In this document: one piece after another, positions 19,560-23,437 of the stretch
Layout of the letters: every line of letters begins with the position of its first letter
Position numbering within the stretch: the stretch's first letter is position 1
From: Allocoleopsis franciscana PCC 7113
GTDB taxonomy: Bacteria > Cyanobacteriota > Cyanobacteriia > Cyanobacteriales > Coleofasciculaceae
Reading direction: 5' to 3'
NCBI RefSeq assembly: GCF_000317515.1
Contig: NC_019738.1
Location: 3,498,001 to 3,562,000 of the forward strand
Length of the DNA: 64,000 nt
Translations under genes and position numbers: made by a program
Notes under the pieces: generated by a model
What the model was told of the DNA's origin: nothing
What the model saw: only the letters and a program-made list of their open reading frames with translations
The model's database searches: none

Positions 19560-19802
19560 TTACGCAAAGTTACTGAAGATGAGCGCCCAAACCGTTCCCG
19601 TCACCCCAGCCGCAATTAACAGGTTAGTGAAAAACCGACCTAATTCCGGTTCAAATCCTAGTACCTTATCTTCCTTGCCCGCCGTGAAAAACAATGACCA
19701 AGCTTGAGTAGCGGTAATGGGTTCACCGTTGTTGAAGTCAGAGCGAAAAACAACAGGTGCTAACAAATCTTTATTGGTGGGATAGTCAAAATTAGGTGTC
19801 AT
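19560..19802 (-). CDS. Small one-helix membrane protein downstream of hli
   Basis: 80 residues from ATG 19802, which has a GGAGAAAGG ribosome site. The N-terminus is polar (TPNFDYPTNKDLLAP); one membrane helix lies near the C-terminus (about 57-77). I do not recognise the family. It is followed by a terminator and preceded by the hli gene, so the two form a two-gene operon under the HLR1 promoter. A thylakoid or chlorophyll-protein role is a guess from context. The insertion in hli may be polar on it. Confidence 0.7.
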   Translation of the reverse strand: MTPNFDYPTNKDLLAPVVFRSDFNNGEPITATQAWSLFFTAGKEDKVLGFEPELGRFFTNLLIAAGVTGTVWALIFSNFA

Positions 19803-20040
19803 AGCCTTTCTCCGAATTTTTGTAATAGTCGATTTTCTTGAACTCAATCCAAGCAAAAAGCACGTTGCTTACAAGCTTGTCAGCCATCCAATCAAGCCGT
19901 GTCCGGTGAGGGCTTCGAGAGCTAAGAGTGAAACAAAGCCAATCATAGCCAGACGCCCATTGAGTTTCTCGGCATAGTCGGTAAAGCCAGTACGCTGCGT
20001 TTCATCCACATAGACTTTGGGTTCGATGGCAAAGTTATTT

Positions 20041-21713
20041 AGGGCTTGCTGAATAAGTCGGCGAAAAACAACCGATGGATTAATCAGTTATTTAATCCTG
20101 GAATAATAATGAGCTTTTGTTGTTGTTAATTCCCACAAGCATAAGCCGAATTAATAGTTATCGAGAAAAAAGGCGTGATGTTGTGTATTGCACAAAAAAA
20201 GACAAAAAAACTGCCGTAGCAGGGTGGAAAGATTCATGACTAAAAAAGTGATAGCAATAGCCGTTTGAGAAGTATGAGGCAGTTTAGCCATGACGCGATT
20301 CAAGCTAAATCTTCGCTTTGAGATGCCAAATTTTCCTTCAATAGCATTGCGAACCTTCTCGTCGTCTAAGGCTTGTTTCTTTTTGTCTGAGCTGACATTA
20401 GCTGGAGGTCTGCCTAAGGGGGGGCCACTTATTCTAATCCCTCTTTCTTTACAGAATGCTCGATTCTCGCGATTTCGATAAATTCTATCTACATGTACTG
20501 ATTCGGGATAGACTCCTGTGTGCTGTTTAAATGCTTCTATTTGGGCTTTTAAGTCTCCGGCTTCATTAAAGTTATCCCAGCTTATACGGTCTAAAAAGAC
20601 ATATCCATCTCTGACGCTTGCTGCTAGTTTAGCTCCAAATTCTACAGGTTTTCCGGCTTTTCCTCTCACAATTGGACGGATATGGGGCTGACTTAAACTG
20701 ACTATTCTGTCGTCAATTCTCTGGGCTTTATTCTCATACATCCATTGCTGTTGACGGTAAACTTCCGCCACCACCAGCAAGCTCTTATATTGAGAGATGC
20801 TCAAACCCTCAAGTGCTTCTCCTGTCTGAAGGAGCTGGTCAATGTGTGATAAATTTCTTTTTATATATTTCAGTTGTTTTTTTATAGCTTTTCTTCTCTC
20901 TTTTCTTGACGATCTCCGTTTTTTGGCGACTTTCAAGTAATCTTTCCGAGCGAGGTTTCTATAAGTTTTTGGCTTTTTCTTTAGTCTCCCTTTTAGGGGC
21001 TTATAGAGAGTATCTATTATCTTTTCCGTTTTGACTCTGGCTTGATTTAATAGACCCAAGTCATTGGGATAGCTGATATCTCCTGGCGCACAGGTAGCAT
21101 CCAGAATTAATTTCCCTTGATTCGGGCTTTCTCTTGTTTCTTGCCTTTCTGAGAGTGAGCTTTTTTTTTAGATTCCTCCTCTGTTTCTTCCTGAATCTTC
21201 TTTACCATTCTTTGATTTATTTGATTTACTAAATCAACATTTATCCTTTCTCTAAATCTTACCAAAAGTGAGGCATCATAAGGGGCTTCGTTGCTGTAAT
21301 GCTTTCTCCCTATAAAGTATTGTAAGTAAGGGTTTTCTTTTATTTGTTCTACTGTTTCCCGATCGCTTATTCCTAATCTTTCTTTGATTATTAATGAACC
21401 CAATGCCATCCGAAATGGCAGCGCAGGTGCCCCCATATCAATAGAAAAAATTTTGGCGTATTCCTCTTCAAATTCATCCCAGGGTATCAGATTTGCCATG
21501 ATTACCCAACGGTTATCTTGTGATAACTTTCCCTCAAAGGGCAGCTCAAAGTTTTCCGGTGGGGTCGGGCTTGAGGAAGCTTTTCTGTACATTTTCCCTG
21601 CTCTTGGTACAAGGATTTTGTGGGATTCTACCAGATTTCCTGGGAGCTGAACAACTTTCAAGACCGCTCAAACTATTTATAGCTAAGGGTTTCCGGTTTT
21701 TACAGCAAACCCT
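20041..21713 (-). mobile_element. IS5/IS1182-type insertion sequence inside hli
   Basis: 1673 bp. The end at 20041 reads AGGGCTTGCTGAATAA; the other end, on the minus strand from 21713, reads AGGGTTTGCTGTAAAA. The flanks on both sides are ATTT, a 4-bp target duplication. It carries one transposase gene in two frames. Confidence 0.92.
20151..21661 (-). CDS. IS5/IS1182-type transposase, two frames joined at an A9 run
   Basis: The first frame (21661-21107, 184 residues) has the DUF772 N-terminal domain (LGISDRETVEQIKENPYLQYFIG). The second (ending at 20151) carries the DDE nuclease part (ILDATCAPGDI, then VHVDRIYRNRENR). The sequence is continuous if the reading frame changes at nine A (minus strand, 21169-21161) just after TEEESK. 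Such a run is typical of transcript slippage or programmed frameshifting in insertion sequences, so the element may be active; a simple mutation is the alternative. Confidence 0.8.
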
Positions 21714-21780
21714 ATTTAGTCGGCTTTGCTCGTCAATGGTGTAACCGCGTGAGGTCATGTCTTTCTCCTTGTTTCCGTCT

Positions 21781-21808
21781 CATGTAAATAAATGTAACTC
21801 AATGTAAA
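21781..21808 (-). promoter_or_regulatory. HLR1 (RpaB-binding) triple half-site before hli
   Basis: On the minus strand: TTTACATT, GTTACATT and TTTACATG, each separated by 2 bp, so a 10-bp period. This matches the HLR1 consensus (G/T)TTACA(T/A)(T/A)nn(G/T)TTACA(T/A)(T/A) with an additional third unit. It lies 23 bp before the hli start. RpaB binds such sites to control high-light genes. Confidence 0.88.
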
Positions 21809-22848: not shown

Positions 22849-23238
22849 CTACCAGTGTTCTACTATCAATTCATCCACATAATCAAAATCAGTATCATCC
22901 GTCACCAATACCCAACCCTGTTCTAAACACTGAGCAGCAATCCATACATCGTTCATTGGAATTGGTCGCCCCTTGCGCTTCAATGCCAACCGGGTTTGAG
23001 CATACATTGTTGCTGTTTCTCTCCCTCATGGCACAACTCTACAAGCTGCTATGAACTCCAGATAGCGGGGCAAGTTTTGTAACGGACGAGTTGAGTTTTC
23101 TGCACCAAATAACAACTCTCCGACAACAATCATTGGCAGAATTACTTCTGGTAAAGCCAATACCCTTTCAGTAATTGTCACATCTCCGTTCACAAAACGA
23201 ACCGCAGCAGAGGTATCAAGCGCAATCTCACCACTCAT
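22849..23238 (-). pseudogene. vapC: VapC-like PIN-domain toxin with internal stop
   Basis: A 130-codon PIN frame (first acidic residue in LDTSAAV; Glu in VVGELLFGA; C-terminal DDTDFDYV) that is in frame throughout except for one TGA at 23026-23028 after ACRVVP. VapC toxins are Mg-dependent RNases, usually about 130 residues, so the length is right and a single nonsense change explains the break. It overlaps the antitoxin gene by 11 bp. Confidence 0.85.
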
Positions 23239-23437
23239 TCAAATCTACCTGCCGACATTCTGCCGTGATTGTTCGCTGTAGCTCTTCTGCCTCTGAATCA
23301 CTTAAGATTCCTGCAAATTTTGCAAGGGGATGTTTTTTGCGTATAGCTTTAACCCGATGTAAAAAATCTAGCACTGTCTGTACTAAATCATCGGGAGCCT
23401 GTTCGAGTTCCTGAATCAATTGCTCACGGTTTGTCAT
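23228..23437 (-). CDS. VapB-like antitoxin
   Basis: 69 residues, DUF2281-like (MTNREQLIQELEQAPDDLVQTVLDFL at the start by pattern: polar helix then a basic stretch), ending with an acidic tail that would wrap the toxin. It overlaps the VapC-like frame by 11 bp, typical of toxin-antitoxin operons. With its toxin broken it may be free to decay. Confidence 0.75.
   Translation of the reverse strand: MTNREQLIQELEQAPDDLVQTVLDFLHRVKAIRKKHPLAKFAGILSDSEAEELQRTITAECRQVDLNEW

Follow-up and report, generated by a model that had tools for sequence, protein, structure and literature searches.

Results

The window is a 64,000-nucleotide stretch of the Allocoleopsis franciscana PCC 7113 genome. Its minus strand holds, at 19869–21758, an hli gene that is interrupted after codon 15 by a 1,673-bp element, as removal of the element in silico makes plain. 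Deleting 20041–21713 together with one ATTT restores a 70-residue Hli protein with an intact helix and no other lesion in the frame, just as an earlier reading of the sequence alone had reported. The 5′ part of the gene (21714–21758) comprises the ATG and codons 1–15 (MTSRGYTIDEQSRLN) and holds one copy of the target core. The 3′ part (19869–20036) carries codons 16–70, the stop codon, and the whole chlorophyll-binding helix; its sole in-frame restart codon is a GTG at 20009 (codon 25), which opens a frame of 46 aa.

The restored product has the features of a high-light-inducible, light-protective protein of the HliA/B type, namely a single helix, a length of ∼70 aa, and the motif ExxNGRxAMIGF. 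It is 68–83% identical to the proteins of 80 cyanobacterial loci, mostly across all 70 aa, and its match to the Pfam family Chloroa_b-bind (21.1 bits) falls slightly below the cutoff of 22.3. On the question of a horizontal origin, a protein tree of 84 rows, which has too few columns, placed the interrupted hli in no supported group. An intact paralogue, 74% identical and lacking an exact HLR1 pair, lies elsewhere in the genome, which implies that not all HliA/B-type function is lost.

On the same strand, 66 nt after the hli stop codon, lies a lilA-like gene (19560–19802) encoding 80 aa. Its product is 59% identical to that of the ORF immediately following hli in Synechocystis salina. In 48 of the 88 loci examined, S. 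salina included, hli is followed on its own strand by a lilA-like gene, 47 times within 140 nt. We call the gene lilA from homology and position; its equation with Slr1544 follows gene order and is provisional. In Synechocystis 6803, hliB-lilA (ssr2595-slr1544) is an operon (PMC7372957), and homology and gene order indicate that the two genes are probably cotranscribed here as well. The insertion separates lilA from the HLR1 promoter. Because this is the only lilA copy in the genome and it sits downstream of the element, the insertion probably removes lilA from high-light control. The damage thus probably falls on an operon, since lilA is probably cotranscribed with hli, a consequence that the sequence-only reading had missed. 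Also on the minus strand (22849–23437), small adjoining frames look by eye like a two-part split PIN-domain (VapC-type) toxin with its antitoxin.

The promoter of the operon carries a triple HLR1 array, TTTACATT-GA-GTTACATT-TA-TTTACATG (21781–21808, minus strand), a predicted RpaB-binding operator that begins 50 nt upstream of the hli ATG. As had been noticed earlier, its three half-sites stand at exact 10-bp spacing; they match the consensus at 8/8, 8/8, and 7/8 positions. The first two form an exact KTTACAWW-N2-KTTACAWW, the HLR1 consensus (PMC13421787), with 2 nt between them and close to the beginning of a light-regulated gene. In RpaB targets that are repressed, HLR1 overlaps the transcription start (PMC13421787), an arrangement that the position of the array here would fit. 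No other such triple occurs in the 8-Mb genome when up to two mismatches are allowed, and exact HLR1 pairs are found seven times, vs. two for a reversed control pattern. Four of the other six exact pairs lie upstream of psbA, a petC-like gene, another hli, and a psb34-like gene (names assigned from the first residues), so on this evidence the motif is meaningful in this genome.

The interrupting element is an insertion sequence of the IS5 family with its transposase on the minus strand. It measures 1,673 bp if its ends are read as AGGG..CCCT (20041–21713) or 1,671 bp if they are read as GGG..CCC (20042–21712). Its inverted ends carry AGGGYTTGCTG and are flanked by a target duplication, as in other IS5 elements. 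The frame-joined transposase, with domains DUF772 and DDE_Tnp_1_2, scores 487.5 bits against the curated IS5 model NF033578 (transpos_IS5_1; cutoff 275, E = 3.6e-146), compared with 81 bits against the IS1182 model, far under the cutoff of 270. The genome (7.97 Mb, nine contigs) contains 26 matches, 16 of them full length at 99.88–100% identity, and each full-length copy has a separate site. With 15 full-length copies elsewhere, chance cannot account for either the ends or the duplication, and the earlier claim of an insertion sequence within hli holds. Since the 16 near-identical copies each occupy their own site, the insertion is, as judged from sequence, both real and recent, although it carries no date. 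Its recency had been proposed as probable; the case is now stronger, as nine of the 16 copies, that in the window among them, are identical base for base over 1,673 bp. Scans of the element for promoters and terminators found none above the shuffled expectation, and its 3′ end has only a slight folding advantage over shuffled sequences (z = −1.7).

Three other identical or near-identical copies of the element likewise interrupt long open frames, whose products were named by eye. One (L007; G000:C1 2505199–2506871) sits in the frame for a potassium-transporter-like protein, near its C terminus; another (L010; 6892267–6893938) interrupts an ATP-dependent-DNA-helicase-like frame, and a third (L014; 5684364–5686035) the frame of a pentapeptide-repeat protein. 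At G000:C1 7255264–7258792 (L012, L017, L023), two copies stand side by side, preceded by a degraded 83% relative, and the flanking duplications are mismatched, as expected once copies recombine.

The copies also bear on the length of the target duplication, which had been given as an exact ATTT. Exact duplication on both flanks is confirmed; its length is probably 6 bp. When the ends are read as GGG…CCC, a perfect T-A-N-N-T-(A/G) (TANNTR) duplication flanks 17 of the 19 full-length copies compared, 81–82% relatives included; when they are read as AGGG…CCCT, the duplication becomes a 4-bp core, ANNT, here ATTT. In two copies (L010 and L011), a G replaces the first A of the element, and the target has a G exactly there in these two, which favors the longer reading. 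The duplication is therefore probably TATTTA, with ATTT as its core, lying on the plus strand at 20036–20041 (core 20037–20040) and 21713–21718 (core 21714–21717). The restored hli is identical under either reading. The two copies that lack a matching duplication (L012 and L016) look recombined; L012 adjoins another partial copy.

The transposase is encoded in two frames. ORF1 (DUF772; 21107–21661, minus strand) may start at a TTG at 21661 or at an ATG at 21592 (MYRKASS). The open frame of ORF2 (DDE_Tnp_1_2; 20151–21167, minus strand) is shifted by −1 relative to ORF1 and includes LILDATCAPGDISYPNDLG upstream of a mechanically assigned TTG start at 21059. The two frames differ in every full-length copy and meet at a run of nine A residues (A9; 21161–21169, minus strand), a putative frameshift or slippage site; in the −1 frame, the protein runs through LILDATCAPGDISYPNDLG into the DDE domain. 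The A9 is kept in all full-length copies except L014 and is also found in the 81–82% relatives of the same genome and in 83% and 90% relatives in two other genomes (G011 and G006). Diverged copies thus keep a slippery run where the frames meet, as expected of programmed frameshifting. In more distant relatives of the element (L185 and L164, in G011 and G051), the run is A10 and the transposase is a single frame of 500–507 residues, so that the length of the A-run appears to determine whether the transposase has one frame or two. L014 has an A8, expected to disrupt the normal meeting of the frames, and this copy is possibly dead.

We rejected transposase decay as the cause of the two ORFs, because identical, multiplied copies and relatives at 81–90% have the same split. 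Programmed frameshifting or slippage of the transcript best explains the split transposase, since the element has multiplied in the split state. Measured frameshifting of up to 24% has been reported for a cluster of DUF772 transposases in Escherichia coli, and poly-A runs are characteristic of transposase frameshift sites (PMC3711429).

The third half-site of the HLR1 array recurs in other cyanobacteria. A strong HLR1 pair is present in 43 of 49 dereplicated hli promoters, and 30 of these 43 have, on one side, a third half-site in 10-bp phase that matches at least 6/8 positions, vs. 3.3 in shuffles; at 7/8 or better, the count is 20 of 43 vs. 0.5. The third half-site accompanies 24 of 26 promoters with lilA downstream, compared with 6 of 17 without it (Fisher P = 1e-4, a value that is only indicative because the sample consists of the loci nearest this Hli and related promoters are not independent). 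The earlier statement that two half-sites are usual therefore does not hold for this gene family. In many Nostocales promoters, the array starts 49–51 nt before the start codon and the middle half-site reads GTTATATT, which may be a −10 box instead of an RpaB site. The hli promoters of Microcystis (L128, L133, L135–L138, L154) contain five to six octamers that weakly resemble half-sites and keep a 10-bp phase. Full-text searches that covered a minority of the HLR1 papers found no description of triple HLR1 arrays at hli genes.

The one genome of the same genus that was compared (G001) has an orthologue of the intact hli paralogue. The interrupted hli and lilA are both missing from G001, and 44 kb around the locus is not syntenic there, so this relative offers no empty site.

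Discussion

Our analysis indicates that a recently active IS5-family element moved into codon 15–16 of an hliA/hliB-type gene, the first of an hli-lilA operon whose high-light promoter is of the RpaB/HLR1 type, and duplicated TATTTA as it did so. We put the probability of this reading at roughly 0.93. Under it, full-length Hli would no longer be made from the interrupted gene, and lilA, now 1.67 kb further off, would be largely deprived of transcription induced by light. Transcription from the HLR1 promoter would instead run into the transposase ORF on the same strand, and slippage of the transcript or −1 frameshifting at the A9 run would yield the transposase. lilA could still be expressed if transcription read through from that promoter or from the element. 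The split makes this strain a natural hli-lilA mutant, with no second lilA in the genome.

The orientation of the element raises the possibility that the promoter has been captured, with HLR1 driving the transposase, the copy becoming light-inducible, and the insertion being retained because it promotes transposition when the cell is under light stress. Indeed, the array and the transposase point the same way, with the transposase ATG 216 nt past the point where the array begins, and a search of that strand turned up no terminator-like site. However, the shared orientation may merely follow from how the element landed, the eight identical copies elsewhere multiplied without sign of needing such a promoter, and the locus bears no sign of selection for capture. 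We consider such capture unlikely.

A still less probable alternative is that the 3′ part of hli is expressed through read-through from the element, giving a truncated Hli of 46 residues from the GTG start that keeps some function. That frame is open, includes the full helix, and shows no decay, so it is translatable in principle. Yet its only start is that GTG, inspection by eye shows no obvious ribosome-binding site, and a promoter scan of the strand gave nothing. Moreover, the recency of the insertion already accounts for the absence of decay. That a repeat was misjoined into hli during assembly is highly improbable: although errors of this kind classically arise at multicopy repeats like this one of 1.67 kb, both flanks come from one gene that is restored exactly, and the duplication motif is the one seen at the other copies. 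The insertion into hli is an ordinary insertion-sequence event that has knocked out one of several hli genes.

The promoter survey adds a modest new point, which is that the triple HLR1 array is, as predicted from sequence, common at hli-lilA operons. A broader proposal is that these operons share a conserved array of three half-sites, at 10-bp spacing and ∼50 nt before the start codon, which constitutes a distinct predicted RpaB operator not yet presented as one in its own right; it might accommodate one and a half dimers, for instance, or be a site that the −10 box shares. The present locus would be a member, now driving a transposase. We offer this proposal tentatively, and judge it somewhat less probable than its negation. 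The commonness of triple arrays at hli-lilA operons raises the question of how RpaB binds them, whether at two sites, at three, or in overlap with the −10 box.

It is useful to set the locus beside known systems. The IS5-family insertion sequences recorded in cyanobacteria (IS5 family, ISMae6-like, ISAcma17-like) likewise combine DUF772 with DDE_Tnp_1_2, short inverted ends, a small target duplication, and multiple copies. Unlike them, the element described here has its transposase in two frames that meet at A9, and its duplication is best read as 6 bp of TANNTR. In having a DUF772 transposase encoded as two genes, it resembles the frameshifting cluster of PMC3711429; that cluster is annotated as IS1182, whereas our element scores as IS5 and its frameshifting is predicted from sequence. 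The operon resembles hliB-lilA of Synechocystis PCC 6803 in that a lilA-like gene comes after an HliA/B-type gene in the same orientation, and in its HLR1-type promoter. The Synechocystis promoter has two in-phase half-sites, whereas three are present here and the operon is interrupted by an insertion sequence. Three HLR1 motifs are also mentioned at psaAB, in a different arrangement (PMC6331805). Finally, in contrast to the HLR1 element bound by RpaB, the array at this locus contains a third half-site in phase, and RpaB binding to it is predicted.
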